This document shows positions 725 through 10,491 of a DNA stretch of 37,699 nucleotides, in pieces. This DNA is from a virus: IMG/VR virus record IMGVR_UViG_3300031963_000415, positions 1-37,699 of that record; one strand, given 5' to 3'. Position 1 is the stretch's first letter; the number at the start of each line of letters is the position of its first letter. The notes beneath the pieces were generated by a model. That model searched no databases, was not told the origin of the DNA, and worked only from the letters and a program-made list of their open reading frames with translations. The translations under genes were made by a program, and so were the position numbers.

Positions 725-3700
725 ATGGCCCAAGACCTGATCGACAAAATCCGCGAACAAGCGCAGGCCCGAGGCCTGGACCCTGAGATTGCTGTGCGCA
801 TTGCTCAGGTTGAGAGTTCGATGGACCCGTCGGCCAAGGCAAAGACGTCTTCAGCCCAGGGCCTGTTCCAGGTGGTCGACAGTACTTGGAAGCAGTTCGG
901 GGGCAAGCCTGGGAAGAAGGCGGATGTGGATGAGAATATTCGGGTGGGCCTGAATATTTTGGAGTCCAACACAAAAAGTTTAAAAAATGCCTTGGGCCGT
1001 GAGCCAAGCGCCACGGAACTTTATGCGGCTCACTTCCTGGGTGCGCAGGGTGCGAAGACCTTGCTGACTGCCGCCCCGGACACCCCTGTTTCGCAGCTCC
1101 TGTCGCAGCGGGCGATCAAGGCCAATCCTTCGATGCTCAAGGACAAGAATGTTGAGCAGTTGTTGGGGATTTTGAATACGAAGATGGGGGCTCCTGCGGC
1201 TGCTGTTGCAGCGGCGCCGCCCACCCCTGCCGCGCCTATGCCCGCTGCTGCGGCGGGGGCCCCCAAGCGGGCTGCGCCTGCAGCTCCCGCAGCGCCTGTC
1301 ATCTCCAAGGGGATGAATTTGGGCACGGGGTATCAGGCTGCGTTGGCCCTGTCGTTTTTGGGCGATGAGGATGAGGACAGCACTCCGCTCACGCGCGAGC
1401 AGTGGCAAGAGCGCCAGGAGCAGACGTCGGCTGCGCAGATGCTGGCGGACTACAAGCCTAAGAATGCGTTGCAGGATATTAATTGGGATGAGTCGTCTTT
1501 ATTGGCTCCGCGCAAGATGGCTGATGGCGGGGAGGTAGCGAAACTGGCGGCGGGGGGTCTTCCGTATGTGCCTACGGCGCTGGTGCGGCCTTCGCTGCGC
1601 AATCAGTTGACGCAGGCGGATGCGAGCAACACGGCGTATTCCAAGGCGGTGGATGATTACAACGCGGCAGTGGATGCGTACAACGCCAACCCGCAGGGCG
1701 AGTTTACGATGAAGGAGCCAACGGCTCCTATAACTCAGGCCCAGTACGATGCGCTGGTGGCTAAGACGCGCAGTGATGTGCGCGGGCGCAATATGGCACT
1801 GCAAGTGGCGGCCAATCCTGAGCAGTATGGCTTGTCGCTGCCGAAGTTTTTCGCCGATGGCGGCGATGTGGACCTGCAGGGTCTACAGGATCAGGCGCGC
1901 AAGGGCGAGGCGTATCGCTTGATGGAGCAGTACCTCACCACCCGTGATGCGATGCCGGACATCAAGGCGAAGGTACTGCCGGAGCCCACCAATGCCGTGT
2001 TCACCGCTATGCGCATGCCAGCGGGAAGCGGGACGATCACGGTCCACAAGGACCCAGAGGTTATGCGAGTGATTGGCCCCTCGCTGATGGCGCATGAGCT
2101 GGCGCACGCCGCTGATCGCCAGATGGGGCAGCAGGCCAGTGAAGAGTCCAGTGTTATTGATGGCAAGAGCCAGTTTGCCGAGGCCTACGACAAGATGGTG
2201 GGGCGTGGCCCCTTCGTTTCTGGCAAAAAACGCACTGAGTTGGCACGCAAAGTCAACCCGGATTGGGCATCGTTTAACAAAGGGTATCGCGCCTCCCCTG
2301 ACGAGATCAGCGCGCACGGGGTGGGGGCGTTTGCCCCGAGCAAAAACATGCAGGATTCGGCCCCGTTGCACGTGGATGCGACCGCAGCGACCGAATTTCA
2401 AATCCTTTTGGAGCTTGCACAACGCAGTGCGAAGAACAAAGCAACGGGTGCGGTCAAAATCCCGAACTTTTTGAAGCAAATGATGGGTTTTGCAGAGGGC
2501 GGGGAGGTCGAACCGACGCCCGAGGAGCTTGCAGCGGCCTCCCGCCCTGCTTTTGTGACTTCAAAGTCCGGAATCGGGCGGAAAATCAGCACAAAACCGG
2601 GCGAAATCGACTCCGCCATCGTCCAAGGCATCTCCGAGATGCCCTACAACCTCGTTGGCAGCGTAGCGGACGTTGGTGCGCTGGCGCTACGACCGTTTGG
2701 CTACACAAATCCGACCCCGTTTCTTGGTTCTGAGCAACTGAAACAGCTTGCAACCCGTTTGGGCGTGCGTCAGGCGCCCCCGGAGCAGCCCACTGCCCGT
2801 GCTTTCTACGAATTGGGCCAGCTTGGCAGCTCTTTGATCAACCCGGTAGCCCCGGTGCGTGGTGCGGTAGCCGCTGGGCAGGCTGCGGGGCGCACGGCCC
2901 AACAAGCGCTGCAGGATTTCCAGGGCTACAACCGCCAACTGACGGTTCCTAGCGCGTCCTACGCTGTCAAACCTAAGGGCGGGGTGTCTGCCGTGACCAC
3001 TGAGCCCGGCATGGGGACTCCCATGTCTGACCTGGACAACCTACTTAAAGATTATGTTGTTGAGGCCAGAGCCACTGTTCCTGAAAGCTCGCGGGAAACG
3101 GTTATGGAGTTCTTGCGCACCAAGGCTCCCAAGTACTTCACCAACACTTACGGCACGGCCTCGGACCCGTTGCGGGAAGCTATCCGTTCTTCGCGGATTG
3201 CGCCCATGAGCAAAGAAGCGAAGGCTATGCCTTTTTCCCTGATTGAGACGGCCCGCAACCCTCAAGCTCGCGACCATGCGCAGGCAGCGATTGAGTTGGA
3301 AAAAGCCTACGATGACCTGACCGGTATTTATGGTCTTGCCTACCGTGCTCCGGATTCGACAAAGCCGCCGTCTTCCTTCTTTTCAAGCCAGCGTGAAAAA
3401 CAGATTTCTGCGGCCATGGGCCGCGAAGGGGTGCCCGTAGAGGCCCGCAACCCGCCCTTGGTTGATGCATATGCAAGGGAAGAGTTTGCAGAGTACCCAT
3501 ATTCATCCCGGGCCTTGCGCGCAATGGTAGAGAGCCCCACGCTGCCCCCGCACCTGCAGCGAGCGCTTAAAGAAGGCGAGACGATCTACGACGCCCAACC
3601 AAGCTTTGAGATGCTCAAGCCGGGTAATGTTGTGGATGCCCTAAGCGCGATTCCTGCCAACAAACTCAAGAACATGAGCTTCCCCGAGGCGCTGATTCAA

Positions 3701-4285
3701 GGCATGCAGGCCACGGCGCCGCTCCGGGACTACAAAGCGGCAATTGAAATTGCTGATCGCGGAGGCGCGGTGCCCCAGGCAGCCCTGATGAAGTTTACGC
3801 AACCAGTCGTCACTACTGACAAGGGCACATGGGTGCGCCTGACCGACCCGCTGGCTACTAAAATGGAAGGCCGACTTATGAACCACTCTGTGGACGGCTA
3901 CGCGCAAGGCGAGAGTTACGGCACGGCGTACACTGGTCTGCCGTATGGTGGCAAGAAGGCGTTCGAGGAGGGCCTTGCCCAGGTCTACTCGCTGCGCGAT
4001 AAGAACGGCAAGCCGATGGTCACGGTGGAGGTTGCCAACAAGGGCACAAAGGAAGAGCCTAAGCTGCTCGTGACCCAAGTTCGCGGCCGGTTTAATTCGG
4101 AACCCACTGCTGGTACGCAAAAAGCAGTTTTTGATTTGTTCGACAAGCTCGACGAAGGCGGCAAGCTCAAAGAGATCAGGCCGAACAGCTACAGTGTCAG
4201 CCCAACCGGAGAACGCCTGGACCAGGGCTCTCAAGTAGACTGGGGCCGTTTGTATGACGAGTGGAAATTAGATTTCGCGGAATAA
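725..4285 (+). CDS. Giant multidomain protein: lytic transglycosylase + HELAH zincin-like domain + PcfJ-like C-terminus
   Basis: A protein of 1186 residues between terminase and portal. Residues ~5-150 form an SLT-type lytic transglycosylase domain: catalytic Glu30 in RIAQVESSMDPS, then SSAQGLFQV and YAAHFLGAQGA. It would cleave peptidoglycan. An Ala/Pro linker follows (~155-195). ADGGEV-like motifs lie at 265-271, 376-382 and 589-595. A zinc peptidase motif HELAH is at 457-461, with Glu527 in SPDEISAH as a possible third ligand. Near the C-terminus, MNHSVDGY (1052-1059) and YSLRD...PMVTVEV (1088-1103) resemble the core of PcfJ-type domains, with Ser1055 where I recall a conserved Cys. Such fusions match the 'polyvalent proteins' of phages and conjugative elements that are packaged and injected. 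Functions of the middle and C-terminal parts are inferred. Confidence 0.75.
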   Translation: MAQDLIDKIREQAQARGLDPEIAVRIAQVESSMDPSAKAKTSSAQGLFQVVDSTWKQFGGKPGKKADVDENIRVGLNILESNTKSLKNALGREPSATELYAAHFLGAQGAKTLLTAAPDTPVSQLLSQRAIKANPSMLKDKNVEQLLGILNTKMGAPAAAVAAAPPTPAAPMPAAAAGAPKRAAPAAPAAPVISKGMNLGTGYQAALALSFLGDEDEDSTPLTREQWQERQEQTSAAQMLADYKPKNALQDINWDESSLLAPRKMADGGEVAKLAAGGLPYVPTALVRPSLRNQLTQADASNTAYSKAVDDYNAAVDAYNANPQGEFTMKEPTAPITQAQYDALVAKTRSDVRGRNMALQVAANPEQYGLSLPKFFADGGDVDLQGLQDQARKGEAYRLMEQYLTTRDAMPDIKAKVLPEPTNAVFTAMRMPAGSGTITVHKDPEVMRVIGPSLMAHELAHAADRQMGQQASEESSVIDGKSQFAEAYDKMVGRGPFVSGKKRTELARKVNPDWASFNKGYRASPDEISAHGVGAFAPSKNMQDSAPLHVDATAATEFQILLELAQRSAKNKATGAVKIPNFLKQMMGFAEGGEVEPTPEELAAASRPAFVTSKSGIGRKISTKPGEIDSAIVQGISEMPYNLVGSVADVGALALRPFGYTNPTPFLGSEQLKQLATRLGVRQAPPEQPTARAFYELGQLGSSLINPVAPVRGAVAAGQAAGRTAQQALQDFQGYNRQLTVPSASYAVKPKGGVSAVTTEPGMGTPMSDLDNLLKDYVVEARATVPESSRETVMEFLRTKAPKYFTNTYGTASDPLREAIRSSRIAPMSKEAKAMPFSLIETARNPQARDHAQAAIELEKAYDDLTGIYGLAYRAPDSTKPPSSFFSSQREKQISAAMGREGVPVEARNPPLVDAYAREEFAEYPYSSRALRAMVESPTLPPHLQRALKEGETIYDAQPSFEMLKPGNVVDALSAIPANKLKNMSFPEALIQGMQATAPLRDYKAAIEIADRGGAVPQAALMKFTQPVVTTDKGTWVRLTDPLATKMEGRLMNHSVDGYAQGESYGTAYTGLPYGGKKAFEEGLAQVYSLRDKNGKPMVTVEVANKGTKEEPKLLVTQVRGRFNSEPTAGTQKAVFDLFDKLDEGGKLKEIRPNSYSVSPTGERLDQGSQVDWGRLYDEWKLDFAE

Positions 4286-4294
4286 GGAACAGAC

Positions 4295-6727
4295 ATGCCC
4301 ATCGAAAAAAACAACGATCTCCCGTCTGGCAATCTTGATGTTCAGGTAGAAGACATCGCTGTTGAGGACCTGCCCGACATTGAGATTGAGTTTGACCCGG
4401 AGACGGGCAGCGTTGATGTGACGCTGGGCGAGGACGACAAGGAGGTGCCTTTTGACACCAACCTTGCAGAGGTGATGGACCCCTCAGTGCTGCAGACGCT
4501 GTCGTCTGAGCTGATGGTCATGTACGAGGCGGACAAGTCCTCGCGCAAGGAGTGGGAAGAGCAGTACGGCAAGGGCCTGAAGATGCTGGGCTTCTCGTTC
4601 GAGGAGCGCACCAAGCCGTTTAAGGGCGCCGCTGGCGTGCAGCACCCGCTGCTGACTGAATCGATTGTGCAGTTCCAGTCGCAGGCGCTCAAGGAGCTGC
4701 TGCCCTCGGAAGGCCCCGTGCGCACGCAGGTGCTGGGCAAGGAGACGCGCGAGAAGTTGATGCAGGCAGATCGCGTGCGCGACTTCATGAACTACCAGAT
4801 CACCACGGTGATGGAGGAGTACACGCCCGACTTCGACCAGCTCCTGTTCTACGTGGGCTACGGCGGCTCGGCGTTCAAGAAGGTCTACTTCGACGAGGAC
4901 AAGCAGCGCATGGTCAGCAAGCTGATCACGCCGGATGACCTGTACATCCCCTACAAGGGCTCGTCGGTGATGTGCGAGTGTGATCGCATCATCCACCGCG
5001 TGTACATGTCCACCAACGCCTACAACAAGGCCTGCCTGCGTGGCCAGTACTTGGACACGGCGCAGGCTTCCACCCCTGCTGAGACGCCCCAGAGCACCAT
5101 CCAGAAGGAGTTGGACCGCACGACCGGTGTTCAGGCGACGACGGAGCCCGAAGAGATCACGCTGCTGGAGTTCAGCATCGAGCTAGACCTCGTGGGCTTT
5201 GAGCACAAGGACGAAGACGGCGAGCTGACGGGCATCAAGCTGCCCTACATCGTCACTGTGGACGAAGTCACCAACCAAGTGGTTGGTGTGCGGCGCAACT
5301 GGAAGGAAGGCGACGATCTGTATCGCGCCTGCCAGTACTACGTCCACTACCTGCTCGTGCAGGGCCCGGGGTCCTATGGCCTTGGCTTCTTGCACTTGGT
5401 CGGTGGCCTGACCAAGACCGCCACCGGTGCGCTGCAGCAGCTCCTGGACGCTGGCACGCTGGTCAACCTGCCTGCTGGCTTCAAAGCCAAGGGCGCGCGC
5501 ATCATGAACGACGATGTGCCGCTGCAGCCCGGTGAGTTCCGCGACATCGACGCGGGCGGCGCTGATTTGCAATCGACGCTGATGCCTCTGCCTTACAAGG
5601 AGCCGAGCCAGACGCTGCTGCAACTGCTGGGTATCTGCGTAGAAGCCGGGCAGCGCATGGCTTCGATCACCGACATGCAGGTGGGCGACAGCAACCAAAA
5701 CGCTGCCGTGGGAACCACGATTGCGCTGCTGGAAAAGGGCAGCGCGGTCATGTCCAGCATCCACAAGCGCCTGCACTACAGCCAGAAGATTGAGTTCCAA
5801 CTGTTGGCCAAGGGTTTTAGCGAGTACCTGCCCGACGAGTACCCGTACGATGTGCCCGGCGAGAGCCGCACGATCAAACGCCGCGACTTCGATGACCGCA
5901 TCGATGTGCTGCCTGTGTCGGACCCCAACATCTTCTCGGTGGCCCAGCGCATCACCATGGCGCAGACCCAGCTCCAACTGGCTCAGAGCGCCCCGCAGAT
6001 GCACAACATGTACGAGGCCTACCGCCGCATGTATGAGGCCATTGGCGTGCGCGACATCGACCAGATTCTGAACACGCAGAACGTCGACCGCCCCAAGGAC
6101 CCGGCCAGCGAGAACGCCCAGGCGCTGGATGGCTCGCCGCTGAAGGCTTTTGCTGGCCAGCAACACGATGCGCACATCATGGCGCACCTGATGTTCGGTA
6201 TGTCCCCGATTGTTGGCTCGCTCCCCAACGTGGCCATCATCTTGCAAAAGCACTGCTTTGAGCACATTCGCCTCAAGGCCGAAGAGGATGTGGAAGTCGA
6301 GCTGTTCAAGCTGTATGGCACCGACCCGGATCGCGTGGTTTCCGCCCTGCAGCGCGAGGCCATGATTGCCATGAAGGTGGCTGAGAACTTCCAGGCCATG
6401 AAGGCGCTGCAAGAGCAGATGTCCGGCAATCAGGAAGACCCGCTGGTGGCCCTGAAGAAACAGGAGCTGGAGCAAAACGCCAAGCGCGATCAGCAGCGTG
6501 GCGCCCTGGATCAGGCCCGCCTGTCCCTGGATGGCCAGAAAGCGGCTGCGGATGTCGCCGACGATCAGGCCAACCTGCGCCTGAAGGAAGCCGCCTTGGA
6601 AGCCAAGACCGGCGTGGATTACGCAAACATCGACCTACAAGGAGCGCAGCATGTCGCGAACGTCAGCCAACAAGCCTTCCAAAATGCCCAAAGCGCCAGC
6701 GCGGCCCCGACGGGAAGGCCCCAATAA
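4295..6727 (+). CDS. Portal protein, P22-like
   Basis: An 810-residue protein that would form the dodecameric ring through which DNA enters and leaves the head. AAGGAA precedes the ATG by six bases. The first ~65 residues are acidic. The conserved core follows: SSRKEWEEQYGKGLKMLG, GAAGVQHPLLTESIVQFQSQ, LPSEGPVRT, FDQLLFYVGYGGSAFKKVYF and ITPDDLYIPY, a series typical of P22-type podovirus portals. It is somewhat longer than P22 gp1 (about 725 residues). The last ~130 residues are Gln/Ala-rich and probably helical, like the barrel or crown extension of that family. Position downstream of terminase and upstream of scaffold and capsid supports the call. Confidence 0.92.
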   Translation: MPIEKNNDLPSGNLDVQVEDIAVEDLPDIEIEFDPETGSVDVTLGEDDKEVPFDTNLAEVMDPSVLQTLSSELMVMYEADKSSRKEWEEQYGKGLKMLGFSFEERTKPFKGAAGVQHPLLTESIVQFQSQALKELLPSEGPVRTQVLGKETREKLMQADRVRDFMNYQITTVMEEYTPDFDQLLFYVGYGGSAFKKVYFDEDKQRMVSKLITPDDLYIPYKGSSVMCECDRIIHRVYMSTNAYNKACLRGQYLDTAQASTPAETPQSTIQKELDRTTGVQATTEPEEITLLEFSIELDLVGFEHKDEDGELTGIKLPYIVTVDEVTNQVVGVRRNWKEGDDLYRACQYYVHYLLVQGPGSYGLGFLHLVGGLTKTATGALQQLLDAGTLVNLPAGFKAKGARIMNDDVPLQPGEFRDIDAGGADLQSTLMPLPYKEPSQTLLQLLGICVEAGQRMASITDMQVGDSNQNAAVGTTIALLEKGSAVMSSIHKRLHYSQKIEFQLLAKGFSEYLPDEYPYDVPGESRTIKRRDFDDRIDVLPVSDPNIFSVAQRITMAQTQLQLAQSAPQMHNMYEAYRRMYEAIGVRDIDQILNTQNVDRPKDPASENAQALDGSPLKAFAGQQHDAHIMAHLMFGMSPIVGSLPNVAIILQKHCFEHIRLKAEEDVEVELFKLYGTDPDRVVSALQREAMIAMKVAENFQAMKALQEQMSGNQEDPLVALKKQELEQNAKRDQQRGALDQARLSLDGQKAAADVADDQANLRLKEAALEAKTGVDYANIDLQGAQHVANVSQQAFQNAQSASAAPTGRPQ

Positions 6728-6875: not shown

Positions 6876-7061
6876 ATGCTTGAATTTGCTGAACAGGTCC
6901 AGGTCGCCATTCGTAGGCTGCGCGAAGATGCCGCGCAAATGCTTATGAGCGGTGGCGTCAAGGACATGGAGCAGTATCGCTTTCTTATGGGGCGCCTAGA
7001 GGGGTATCGGTTTGTCGAGGATGCGGTCAAACAAATCCTTGCCAAAAACTCAGACCTCTAA
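6876..7061 (+). CDS. Small helical protein of unknown function (61 aa)
   Basis: The ATG at 6876 is chosen over an in-frame GTG at 6852 because GGAG (6866-6869) lies at the right distance. The product starts MLEFAEQVQVAIRRLREDA and ends VEDAVKQILAKNSDL. It is mostly charged and should be helical, with no Cys and no membrane span. A central GGVKDMEQYRFLMGRLEGY stretch resembles small conserved phage proteins found just before scaffold genes, but I cannot name a family. It sits in the head module, nine bases before the co-chaperonin gene, and is probably co-translated with it. Confidence 0.72.
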   Translation: MLEFAEQVQVAIRRLREDAAQMLMSGGVKDMEQYRFLMGRLEGYRFVEDAVKQILAKNSDL

Positions 7062-7070
7062 AGGACCTAA

Positions 7071-7529
7071 ATGGAAGCAACTGCACTGGAGAAGAAGTGG
7101 GCAGAGGAGTCAGCGGCAGCCGCTGCTGCTGAAGCTGCCCAAAAAGTCGCGGATGAAGCTGCAAAGGCCGCCCACATGGAGCAGGCCGAGAGCATGCGAG
7201 AGCGCCTACCCCGTCCGACGGGCTGGCGGATCATCGTACTGCCGTATGCAGGCGCGCGCCGCACTAAAGGCGGCATCGAGCTGGCCAACGAGACGATTGA
7301 GCGCCAGCAGCTCACTACCACTTGTGCATACGTCCTGTCTGTTGGCGAATTGGCCTACAAGGACGAAGCAAAATTCCCCGGCGGCCCTTGGTGCAAAGAG
7401 GGGGATTGGATTATTTTTGGTCGGTACGCGGGAGCCCGCATGGCTATTGATGGCGGAGAAATCCGCATCCTCAATGACGATGAAATCCTGGCGACGATCA
7501 AAAACCCAGAAGACATCCTGCACATGTGA
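7071..7529 (+). CDS. GroES-like co-chaperonin
   Basis: A 152-residue protein. Residues ~48-142 match the GroES fold: RPTGWRIIVLPYAG at the first strand, a mobile-loop segment RRTKGGIELANETIE (63-77), AYVLSVGE, then CKEGDWIIFGRYAGARMAIDG and IRILNDDEILATI, which parallels the conserved GroES C-terminal half. GroES caps the GroEL chamber; T4 gp31 is the classic phage example, needed to fold the major capsid protein. In place of the GroEL-binding Ile-Val-Leu triplet the loop has Ile-Glu-Leu. Unusually, an Ala/Glu-rich helical extension of ~45 residues precedes the fold. AAGGA lies before the ATG. Location between portal and scaffold supports a role in capsid folding. Confidence 0.82.
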   Translation: MEATALEKKWAEESAAAAAAEAAQKVADEAAKAAHMEQAESMRERLPRPTGWRIIVLPYAGARRTKGGIELANETIERQQLTTTCAYVLSVGELAYKDEAKFPGGPWCKEGDWIIFGRYAGARMAIDGGEIRILNDDEILATIKNPEDILHM

Positions 7530-7537
7530 GGTGATAA

Positions 7538-8470
7538 ATGGCAACTGTACTCAATGACGACCAGCTAGAGTTTGATTTGGGGGCCGATGAAAAGGCCACC
7601 AACGTCACTTTTTCGCCCCCGGAAGACGATTCCGCAGCGGGCCAACCCGAGGCTCCTGAGCCGCCAGCGGCCCGCCAAGAAGAGTCGTCGACTCATCGGG
7701 ACGAGCTTGACGCGGTCAACGACAACGTCCAAAAGCGCATCTCTAAGCTCACCGCGCGCATGCGCGAGGCCGAGCGCCGCGAACAGGCGGCCTTGGAGTA
7801 TGCAAAAGGACTACAAACGCAGGCTCAAACGCTTCAGCAACGACTGGTCAATACTGACTTCAGTCGTTTGAATGAGGCCAAGGCGCGCCTAGATACTCAG
7901 CAAGCGGCTCTGCGCCAGATTATTGTTAAGGCTCGGGAAGAAAACGACCTGAACACGGAGATTGAGGCCCAGGAGCGGCTTGCCGCCATGGTTCAAGATC
8001 AACGGCAGGTAGCTCAGTGGCTACAGGAACAAGGGCAACCCCAGCCCGAGCCCCAAGCTTATCAGCCCCAACAACCGGCCCAACAGCCTGCCAAGCCTCG
8101 TCCGGACCCCCGGGCAGAGTCTTGGGCTGAGAAAAACCCCTGGTTTGGTCAAAACCGCATGCTTACCTATGGAGCGTGGGGCATTCACCAACAATTAGTT
8201 GAAGAAGAGGGAATTGACCCCGCTTCTGATGACTACTATACTGAATTGGACCGAAGACTTAGGGATGAATTTCCCAAGCACTTCGCGGGCGAGCAATCGT
8301 CCAACCAACCCACCAGACAACAGCGTTCCGCACCGGCTGTTGCTCCTGCTACCCGTAGTTCGGGGATGAATAGTGTGCGCCGTACTGTCCGGCTGTCGCC
8401 GAGTCAGGTTGCTATTGCAAAGAAGCTGGGCGTTCCTCTTGAGGAATATGCCAAGTATGTGAAGGAGTGA
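7538..8470 (+). CDS. Scaffolding protein (probable)
   Basis: A 310-residue, highly charged protein lying directly before the capsid genes. It has an acidic, low-complexity N-terminus (1-60), a long predicted coiled coil (~62-170, KRISKLTARMREAERREQ onward), a Pro/Gln linker (~170-195), a short conserved-looking core (ESWAEKNPWFGQNRMLTYG) and a basic C-terminal segment (VRRTVRLSPSQVAIAKKLG). A helical body plus basic C-terminal capsid-binding helix is the usual design of scaffold proteins such as P22 gp8. GAGGTGAT precedes the ATG. No protease motif is seen, so scaffold release without cleavage is possible. The identification is by position and composition. Confidence 0.75.
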   Translation: MATVLNDDQLEFDLGADEKATNVTFSPPEDDSAAGQPEAPEPPAARQEESSTHRDELDAVNDNVQKRISKLTARMREAERREQAALEYAKGLQTQAQTLQQRLVNTDFSRLNEAKARLDTQQAALRQIIVKAREENDLNTEIEAQERLAAMVQDQRQVAQWLQEQGQPQPEPQAYQPQQPAQQPAKPRPDPRAESWAEKNPWFGQNRMLTYGAWGIHQQLVEEEGIDPASDDYYTELDRRLRDEFPKHFAGEQSSNQPTRQQRSAPAVAPATRSSGMNSVRRTVRLSPSQVAIAKKLGVPLEEYAKYVKE

Positions 8471-8475
8471 TCACG

Positions 8476-8949
8476 ATGAGCGAACTTAAAATTGACCGTG
8501 CTGCCCGTAGCGGTGCAACCCGTGAAAAAGAAGCACGCCGCAAGCCGTGGACTCCGCCTTCCCGTCTTGACACCCCTCCTGCCCCTGAGGGCTACGAGTA
8601 CCGTTGGATTCGCGCCGAAGTCAACGGTTTCCAGGACAAGCAAAACGTCTATTCCAAGCTGCGCGAAGGTTATGAACTCGTGCGCCTGGAGGATGTGCCG
8701 GATGAATATCACGGCATGCTTCCCACGATGGACGACGGCAAACATGTCGGCGTCATTGCTGTGGGCGGACTCTTGCTCGCCAAGATTCCCAAGGAAACCA
8801 TTGAGGAGCGCAACGTGTACTTCCGCCGCAAGGCCCAGGAACAGTTGCATGCAGTGGACAACGAGATGATGCGTGAAAACGCTCACTCTACAATGCGAAT
8901 CCAAGCGCCTGAGCGCGATTCGCGCACTACGTTCCGTCAGCCCACTTAA
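8476..8949 (+). CDS. Head-associated protein of unknown function
   Basis: A 157-residue protein. The ATG at 8476 is preferred over the in-frame GTG at 8467, since AAGGAG at 8462-8467 gives eight-base spacing to the ATG; that site sits at the end of the scaffold gene. The middle carries YEYRWIRAEVNGFQDKQNV, LREGYELVRLEDVPDEYHG and KHVGVIAVGGLLLAKIPKE, a pattern I associate with conserved phage proteins between scaffold and capsid. The C-terminal third is charged and probably helical (EERNVYFRRKAQEQLHAVD). There is no enzymatic motif or membrane span. A head-vertex or assembly role is inferred from position only. Confidence 0.7.
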   Translation: MSELKIDRAARSGATREKEARRKPWTPPSRLDTPPAPEGYEYRWIRAEVNGFQDKQNVYSKLREGYELVRLEDVPDEYHGMLPTMDDGKHVGVIAVGGLLLAKIPKETIEERNVYFRRKAQEQLHAVDNEMMRENAHSTMRIQAPERDSRTTFRQPT

Positions 8950-8985: not shown

Positions 8986-9567
8986 ATGGCAAACGTCAAC
9001 AAGCCTTTTGGTCTGCGTCCTTCTGGTAACCTGTCTGCTACTGGCGCTCAGAAGCAGTACGGCTACCAGATTCAGGACAATCAGGCCGGGGCGATTTATC
9101 AGGGCGATCTGGTCGTCGTTTCCGGCGGCTACGTTATCAAGTACGACGCATCCACGCACAACGCCCCCACGGGCGTGTTCAACGGTGTTCAGTACGACGA
9201 CCCCACCCGTGCTAACAAGCCGACCTGGAAAAACTACTACCCCGGTAGCATCAACATCACCACCGGCATCATCGCCTGTGAAGTGTTGGACGATCCGAGC
9301 CAGTTGTTCCTGGTGCAGGCTGATGGCGCTGTGGTCCAGGCCAACATTGGCAAGAACGCTGATCCGACCGCTTCCACCACTGGTAGCGTCACGACTGGCG
9401 TTTCCAATGGTTCGCTGTCGTCGGCTTCGATCAATACGACCCAAGCCCTGACCTTCAAAATCGTTGGCCTCTACGAGTCCCCGGACAATGCGCTGGGTGA
9501 TTACGCCGTGGTCGTTGTGAAACTCAATCAACACCAGTACGGCAGCGTCGGTGTTACTGCTGACTGA
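8986..9567 (+). CDS. Capsid decoration-like protein
   Basis: A 193-residue protein directly before the major capsid gene, with AGGAG in its leader. The N-terminus MANVNKPFGLRPSGNLSA and the following Gly, Thr, Val and Ser-rich beta-type sequence (GDLVVVSGGYVIKYDAS, FNGVQYDDPTRANKPTWKNY) are typical of phage decoration or capsid-accessory proteins made in large amounts. There are no Cys-rich or enzymatic motifs. A gap of 12 bases separates it from the capsid gene, so equal-level co-expression is likely. A minor coat or fibre-base role is an alternative. Confidence 0.68.
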   Translation: MANVNKPFGLRPSGNLSATGAQKQYGYQIQDNQAGAIYQGDLVVVSGGYVIKYDASTHNAPTGVFNGVQYDDPTRANKPTWKNYYPGSINITTGIIACEVLDDPSQLFLVQADGAVVQANIGKNADPTASTTGSVTTGVSNGSLSSASINTTQALTFKIVGLYESPDNALGDYAVVVVKLNQHQYGSVGVTAD

Positions 9568-9579
9568 CGGAGTTTAATC

Positions 9580-10491
9580 ATGGCAATTACCCGTTCCCAA
9601 CTTGTCAAAGAACTGGAGCCAGGACTGAACGCATTGTTCGGTCTTGAGTACAAGCGCTACGAGAATGAGCACGAGGAGATTTTCTCCATCGAGAGCTCTG
9701 ATCGTGCGTTTGAAGAAGAGGTCATGCTGACCGGCTTCGGCTCTGCCCCGGTGAAGACCGAAGGTGCTGGCGTGGCGTACGATACCGCTCTGGAATCGTT
9801 CACCGCTCGCTACACCCACGAGACCATCGCCATGGCGTTTGCGCTGACCGAAGAAGCCGTTGAGGACAACCTCTACGACCGTCTGTCGGCTCGCTACACC
9901 AAGGCTCTGGCTCGTTCGATGGCCAACACCAAGCAGGTCAAAGGCGCGTCTGTGCTGAACAATGCTTTCACCGGCGGCAGCTATGCTGGCGGCGACGGCG
10001 TGGCTCTGTGCTCGACCGCTCACCCGACCGCTCTGGGCCCTGACTTCTCCAACCGCCCTGCCGTCGCGGCTGACCTGAACGAGACCTCTCTCGAACAGGG
10101 CATCATCGACATCGCAGCGTTCACGGACGAACGTGGCCTGAAGGTCGCTCTGACCGCCCGCAAGATGATCGTTCCGAAGGAACTGCAGTTCACCGCTGAG
10201 CGACTGATGAAGTCCACTTTGCGCACTGCGTCCGCCGACAACGACATCAACGCGATCAAGTCCATGGGCCTGATCCCCGAGGGTTACGCTGTCAACCACT
10301 TCCTGACCGACATCAACGCATGGTTCCTGATCACCGATGCGCCCAACGGTCTGAAGATGTTCCAGCGTTCGCCCATCCGCACCGCGTTCGAAGGCGACTT
10401 CGACACCGGCAACGTGCGTTACAAGGCCCGCGAGCGTTACAGCTTCGGCTGGTCTGACCCGCGCGGTATCTACGGTTCTCCTGGCGCCTAA
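9580..10491 (+). CDS. Major capsid protein, HK97 fold
   Basis: A 303-residue protein with GGAG before the ATG. It has the alternation expected of HK97-type capsid proteins: an N-arm (MAITRSQLVKELEPGLNALFG), an E-loop-like region, the helix ETIAMAFALTEEAVEDNLYD, a central GGDGVALCSTAHPTALGP stretch, then ERGLKVALTARKMIVPKEL and a C-terminal NVRYKARERYSFGWSDPRG. The HPT...LNETSLEQGI pattern recalls major heads of the Mu gpT-like and related families. The window's best intrinsic terminator follows 19 bases after the stop, which marks this as the end of the head operon. It is the likely client of the GroES-like protein. Confidence 0.88.
   Translation: MAITRSQLVKELEPGLNALFGLEYKRYENEHEEIFSIESSDRAFEEEVMLTGFGSAPVKTEGAGVAYDTALESFTARYTHETIAMAFALTEEAVEDNLYDRLSARYTKALARSMANTKQVKGASVLNNAFTGGSYAGGDGVALCSTAHPTALGPDFSNRPAVAADLNETSLEQGIIDIAAFTDERGLKVALTARKMIVPKELQFTAERLMKSTLRTASADNDINAIKSMGLIPEGYAVNHFLTDINAWFLITDAPNGLKMFQRSPIRTAFEGDFDTGNVRYKARERYSFGWSDPRGIYGSPGA

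Follow-up and report, generated by a model that had tools for sequence, protein, structure and literature searches.

Explanations of the phage T4 co-chaperonin gp31 have long centred on the large size of its client, met by a wider folding chamber. According to a review on the T4 head (PMC3012670), gp31 works with the GroEL of the host and is essential for the folding of the major capsid protein gp23, and similarly sized homologues of gp31 nonetheless show a preference for their own capsid protein. A second source (PMC6318259) gives ~56 kDa for gp23, a loop of 22 residues against 16 for gp31, and a chamber that is 8% larger. GroES is also listed among the 13 core genes of HTVC023P-type pelagiphages (PMC9599517) and marked in the Roseobacter phages CRP-901 and CRP-902 (PMC10149686). 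Since annotated records agree with these sources, a GroES gene in such phages is not new; what the analysis adds is the linkage of this gene to one capsid family, a mobile loop that is four residues longer, and an N-terminal arm made of a conserved tip on a spacer.

The DNA analysed, referred to below as the window, is a stretch of 37,699 nucleotides from a viral record (IMGVR_UViG_3300031963_000415). An original prediction made from its letters had placed a GroES-like co-chaperonin at 7071-7529, between portal and capsid genes, and Pfam, PHROG 3188 and structural model matches all agree with that assignment, as do the phrog_1216 and phrog_371 neighbours with the placement (Table 1). An in-frame stop immediately precedes the ATG, and purifying selection acts on the arm, which together rule out an upstream or a downstream start. 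Residues 48-143 match the Pfam Cpn10 profile (PF00166) at 36.4 bits (cut-off 21.1, E 5.4e-9) along profile positions 3-93 of 93, so that the curated cut-off is exceeded over the whole domain, and residues 47-144 match PHROG 3188 ("co-chaperonin GroES") with an E value of 5.3e-18 over positions 3-95 of 96; a profile search thus puts the protein inside the GroES family. Since it missed every cut-off among the NCBIfam GroES models (best 41.2 bits against 96 for NF001531), we regard it as a family member and not as a standard bacterial GroES.

Table 1. Features of the co-chaperonin gene and of the surrounding head module in the window.
Feature	Position	Strand	Basis
Portal gene (phrog_1216)	4295..6727	+	PHROG match
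Small ORF, 61 aa (phrog_32603), ends 9 nt before the GroES ATG	6876..7061	+	PHROG match
AAAGGA, likely ribosome-binding site, 5 nt 5' of the ATG	7060..7065	+	Read from sequence
Co-chaperonin (GroES/Cpn10) gene, 152 aa, stop included	7071..7529	+	ORF, profiles, model
Conserved N-terminal tip (TALExKWAxE), residues 2-14	7074..7112	+	pN/pS 0.235, invariant residues
Ala/Glu-rich spacer, fast-changing, with indels, residues 15-38	7113..7184	+	pN/pS 0.579, 8 gap columns
Linker into core, residues 39-46	7185..7208	+	pN/pS 0.388
Cpn10/GroES core, residues 47-143	7209..7499	+	Pfam 48-143; Z 10.5 to 8wuc_a; pN/pS 0.128
I69-E70-L71, equivalent of GroES I25-V26-L27	7275..7283	+	Alignments
I69 to G92 stretch, 23 residues vs 19 in cellular GroES	7275..7346	+	Alignments, length counts
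C-terminal tail past the GroES end, residues 144-152 (KNPEDILHM)	7500..7526	+	Conservation, 67 CDS
Scaffold-like gene (phrog_28737; putative scaffold role)	7538..8470	+	PHROG match, gene order
Conserved head-module gene "X" (phrog_36003)	8467..8949	+	PHROG match
Conserved head-module gene "Y" (phrog_37556)	8986..9567	+	PHROG match
Major capsid protein, 303 aa (Phage_capsid_4 / phrog_371)	9580..10491	+	Pfam, PHROG

The AlphaFold monomer model (89 sequences, mean pLDDT 84.9) predicts a helix at residues 5-45 and a beta core at 53-143. When the model was compared with the PDB by Foldseek, ranks 1-34 were all GroES, cpn10 or cpn20 chains and T4 gp31 took rank 35. VIA-align found the GroES chain 8wuc_a closest (Z 10.5, rmsd 2.7 A over 91 residues), and T4 gp31 in its GroEL complex scored a Z of 8.3. 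The predicted protein therefore has the GroES beta-barrel fold. With bacterial GroES such as those of E. coli and Thermus it shares this core, a mobile loop with two hydrophobic anchors and the roof stretch, whereas the low NCBIfam scores, the added arms and the longer loop set it apart. Over the 67 distinct coding sequences (CDS) of the window's group pN/pS was lowest in the core (0.128), followed by the loop (0.186) and the tail (0.214), figures that come from short stretches with synonymous sites near saturation.

The closest annotated relatives are the co-chaperonins of DSL-LC04, which matched in tblastn at 73% identity over 72% of the query, and of HTVC027P, 023Pt_psg01 and HTVC023P. The HTVC023P, HTVC027P and DSL-LC04 proteins share gene order, capsid family and loop length with the window and have a similar C-terminal tail, and HTVC023P-type and DSL-LC04 GroES are 52-73% identical to the window's protein over the core. 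They differ in reading VIL or LIL where the window has IEL, and in their arms: those of the pelagiphages are without the Ala-rich helix and the TALExKW tip, while DSL-LC04 has the tip on a different spacer.

The mobile loop reads G67-G68-I69-E70-L71, and G67, G68, I69 and L71 are present in 100% of the 67 CDS, so that both the Gly-Gly pair and the two outer hydrophobic anchors of a GroES loop are in place. Ile-Glu-Leu had been singled out in the original prediction as standing where GroES has Ile-Val-Leu, and alignment of I69-E70-L71 to I25-V26-L27 bears this out. As a special feature it carries little weight, since both outer hydrophobics are kept and, according to PMC5575113, E. coli GroES V26D retains GroEL binding while I25D and L27D abolish it, as L27A also does. 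Glutamate occupies the middle position in 49/54 sequences of the window's group, and across distinct phage sequences that position is held by I (74), E (53), L (39), Y (32), F (30), V (8), A (5), H (5) and single others. By analogy with the E. coli mutants, Ile-Glu-Leu is probably harmless for GroEL binding.

What does distinguish the loop is its length, taken between the first anchor (I25 in E. coli) and G44. Of 249 distinct sequences of the phage family, 233 have a loop of 23 residues, 15 more have one of 22-25, and a single one (L320) has 19; at the L320 locus neither a portal nor a scaffold-like or capsid gene of this family is seen. Cellular GroES has 19 residues in 32/34 rows, the other two not being measurable; these rows are E. 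coli and 33 loci, made up of three host copies and 30 of 75 matches that are largely the best-scoring and from one phylum. Among ten other phage GroES seven have 19 residues, one has 18, gp31 has 20 and MW202601 has 27, and since they are mostly at 19 the four additional residues mark the capsid-linked group and not phages generally. In carrying a phage-encoded GroES fold with a lengthened mobile loop the window resembles T4, but of the residues added in gp31 ~4 precede the tripeptide and one follows it, against four that follow it here; with identity this low, the placement of gp31 in this comparison is uncertain. The roof stretch (G44-G61) is also kept, at 18 residues in the window's group against 17 in cellular GroES, whereas gp31, with 10, is without a roof. 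Among QDWS-like members this stretch varies between 13 and 25 residues, and 15/32 distinct sequences from loci L321-L369 have 7 extra residues before the tripeptide (20 vs 13), both sides of the loop being longer. Lys or Arg frequently takes the place of the third anchor in MinM2-like loci (L259-L319), in motifs such as IFK, LFK and IIR. Judging from these motifs, binding to a GroEL of the E. coli type would not be expected there, which speaks against one mechanism for the whole family; the MinM2-like members may have a different GroEL partner or binding register.

From these features, the capsid linkage described below and the analogy with T4 we consider it fairly likely that the protein serves the capsid module as its own dedicated lid for GroEL. 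Seven copies would form the lid on the host GroEL ring through the mobile loop, in which I69 and L71 would be the hydrophobic anchors, and would enclose in the folding chamber one of the head-module proteins, the best candidate being the major capsid protein of 303 aa. The four residues added after the anchor could lift the lid or change its grip, an effect like that of T4 gp31 reached in a different way. In the N-terminal arm a short conserved helix sits on a variable spacer, and such an arm may act as a flexible tether that touches the client, the scaffold-like protein or GroEL.

The arm had been described as ~45 Ala/Glu-rich, helical residues, and it is indeed modelled as a helix over residues 5-45, of which 39% are Ala. 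Its sequence behaves as translated, with a pN/pS of 0.235 in the tip and 0.579 in the spacer against 0.128 in the core. T4, L6, E7 and W10 are invariant in the 67 distinct CDS of the window's group, and no other ORF in the loci then examined contained the tip motif. Arm length up to the core, with starts chosen by rule, was ~42-49 residues in 79/80 window-like loci, 38-40 in HTVC023P-like loci and 20-23 in 79/80 CRP902-like loci, these 80-locus scans consisting of the best matches with near-copies among them; it was mostly 23 in ct7L-like loci, varied widely in MinM2-like loci and was near 0 in most QDWS-like ones. Lineages that share one gene order thus range from ~0 to ~50 residues. The helical moment of residues 5-45 was no higher than in shuffled sequences (p 0.66), giving no amphipathic signal, and in the predicted structure of the sister protein L080 the single helix is replaced by helices at 5-16, 21-24 and 38-43, with the tip still helical. 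A coiled coil or barrel formed by the arm is rejected on this helical moment and the broken L080 helix. The suggestion that the arm enlarges the chamber as in T4 gp31 is unlikely for the same reasons together with the variable length; if anything enlarges it, it would be the four extra loop residues. On the evidence of sequences and models, the arm combines a conserved tip (TALExKW) with a fast-changing spacer, and the continuous helix is lineage-specific. Arms without the Ala-rich helix contain a loose L-x-D-x-(Y/F)-like stretch, recognised by eye, such as SLQDAY, TLDDAY, LADKY or LQDKY (L040, L072, L078, L079, L080, L082 and the pelagiphage arms L083, L084 and L086). In window-like and HTVC023P-like proteins (D/N/K)PEDILH stands at the end of the C-terminal tail, where other groups have looser variants that contain Pro; in the 67 distinct CDS P146 and D148 are at 100% and I149, L150 and H151 at 98%. 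The one library searched listed no work dealing with such N-terminal extensions in phage GroES.

A flexible tether to client, scaffold-like protein or GroEL is a plausible reading of the arm, since a tip that is conserved and a spacer that varies would suit it. It is possible, if somewhat doubtful, that the lid works as we propose while the arm has no specific partner and serves only solubility or spacing. The spacer, with its pN/pS of 0.579, its length of ~0 to 50 residues and its lack of an amphipathic signal, agrees with such a role, but the constraint on the tip comes close to that on the mobile loop (0.235 vs 0.186) and its four invariant residues are hard to explain without a contact. 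The precise pattern with which the tip was scanned occurs in only 12/67 CDS, and only 1/67 would have been retrievable through the tip pattern alone.

The tie of Cpn10 to the capsid module is supported much more strongly than by one neighbourhood. Homologues of the window's capsid protein occur in 21 named phage records, and all 21 have a Cpn10 gene, found by whole-record searches in 16 and as tblastn matches in five (Pag-Yong1, Pra-JY27, GB2A, RLK and KcrB); since near-copies are among them, the 21 represent fewer independent lineages. As background, at most 114/50,697 phage records have Cpn10 by tblastn with the window's or E. coli GroES, T4-type gp31 being uncounted. E. coli GroES alone found 89/50,697, again missing T4-type gp31, and the window's GroES found 25 at E up to 1, several annotated as co-chaperonin. 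In the 18 records with a capsid identity of at least 41.6% Cpn10 precedes the capsid gene by 2-3.5 kb (an interval that in MinM2 spans the record ends), and in three with 25-27% identity it lies elsewhere. Viral contigs were also scanned with the capsid proteins of two distant members, which avoids selection by GroES, although both queries come from phages that have GroES themselves. Where at least 3.8 kb was available upstream, GroES was present in 32/32 loci of the QDWS-set and 51/51 of the ct7L-set; it was missing in 9/50 of the former and 22/80 (best matches) of the latter, all with less than 3.8 kb before the capsid gene. GroES stood between portal and capsid in all 37 QDWS-set loci having both. 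Among the matches listed for all sets, GroES and the capsid gene were co-stranded in 322/322 loci with both, and the scaffold-like gene lay between them in 320/320 loci where it was found. In CRP-901/902 and MW202675 the portal gene is ~9-12 kb from GroES, which still precedes the scaffold-like gene; this points to a tie with the scaffold/capsid block and not with the portal.

Relatives of the 61-aa ORF stand just upstream of GroES in 75/75 window-like, 69/69 CRP902-like, 51/60 MinM2-like and 52/55 ct7L-like loci among the matches listed; 76 HTVC023P-like and 37 QDWS-like loci yielded none. Between terminase and portal lies a 1186-aa ORF (725-4285, + strand), the start of which we take to resemble a lytic transglycosylase; its positional counterpart in DSL-LC04 is annotated "PcfJ-like protein".

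In the sister capsid group GroES was beside the capsid gene in 0/16 loci. A profile found none in L091-L093 and L451-L470, but the notion that this group lacks GroES was rejected when whole-record searches found Cpn10 elsewhere. It lies far from the capsid gene in the complete sister genomes vir526, MW202601 and MW202604, and is present in 4/20 sister contigs, including both of at least 44 kb and none of those of 35, 29 and 23 kb. Two such genes away from the capsid are at 1327-1683 (-) in L518 and 1700-2164 (+) in L519; Cpn10 is upstream of terminase in vir526, a record that lists Methanomicrobiales as host, and near a single-stranded DNA-binding protein gene in MW202601. The siphophages Pseudoalteromonas phage B8b and Shewanella phage 1/44 likewise have GroES in the structural module, but it adjoins tail genes and has the cellular loop length (19 in Shewanella 1/44). 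Shewanella phage 1/44 and Vibrio phage 1.049.O (L521 and L525) have it among tail/neck genes, just before the major tail protein. Since the sister genomes have Cpn10 at a distance from the capsid gene, and some other phages have GroES by tail genes or apart from structural ones, adjacency to the capsid gene is no rule for phage GroES.

Such placements away from the head genes would suit a general takeover chaperone, through which host GroEL is boosted or redirected for many phage or host proteins (in stress, in the cold or for burst size) and for which the head operon means late timing only; a study on Southern Ocean viruses (PMC8407431) reads viral GroEL/GroES as cold adaptation. We regard this as unlikely for the phages described here, given that Cpn10 accompanies the capsid family in every named record and that in the main group it stays fixed by the scaffold-like and capsid genes even when the portal has moved. 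Returning to the dedicated lid, the capsid protein is the candidate client because of this linkage and the T4 precedent; the gene neighbourhood itself does not name the client, as the scaffold-like gene, X and Y are equally linked.

A GroEL gene was found in 0/17 of the genomes searched, namely 16 named records and the window, which is a fragment, while controls gave 14/14. The partner, if any, must therefore be the GroEL of the host. All 60 bacterial genomes drawn have a Cpn10 of their own, so the phage gene fills no gap in the host, and Cpn10 is likewise present in 3/3 genomes whose bins hold such a phage contig. The contigs L471, L472 and L473, of 58-62 kb and with this GroES, were binned in bacterial genome records (Armatimonadetes, Gammaproteobacteria and Pelagibacteraceae); they are probably phage genomes, and the bins are weak hints of a host. 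In a tree of 131 rows and 101 columns the 89 capsid-linked rows fall on one side of a branch with support 75/80, and the grouping recurs in 74% of bootstrap trees, apart from cellular GroES and from other phage GroES. A single origin of the capsid-linked GroES is likely from this tree, which with its long branches and 101 columns is suggestive only.

That the GroES fold has instead been reused as an assembly factor, binding scaffold or capsid proteins with GroEL capping lost, would accord with the low similarity to cellular GroES, the N- and C-terminal tails added with conserved motifs and the altered loops of MinM2-like and QDWS-like members, but is very unlikely when G67, G68, I69 and L71 are invariant and the loop is under purifying selection.

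The original prediction thus stands in its GroES family and its tie to the capsid module, and is not supported in the significance given to Ile-Glu-Leu and in chamber enlargement by the arm; the tether that it also raised is plausible. The conserved C-terminal tail, the four added loop residues and the small upstream ORF go beyond what it had pointed out. A bolder extension of the dedicated lid, which we put forward tentatively and think improbable, is that the TALExKW helix of the arms docks the scaffold-like protein or unfolded capsid protein, making the lid a hand-over station from GroEL to the procapsid, and that the four loop residues are a second, independent answer to the problem of gp31, for a client that is not oversized. 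The putative client here is a capsid protein of 303 aa against the ~56 kDa of gp23 in T4, so client size alone is a poor reason for the longer loop.

For annotation, Cpn10 may serve as a marker of this capsid family, which it accompanies in 21/21 named records. A widespread group of phages keeps a longer-loop GroES beside a capsid protein of only 303 aa, and should that protein require the lid, its size could not explain why. If this is true, loop timing or lid contacts would be open to study with small, tractable proteins.
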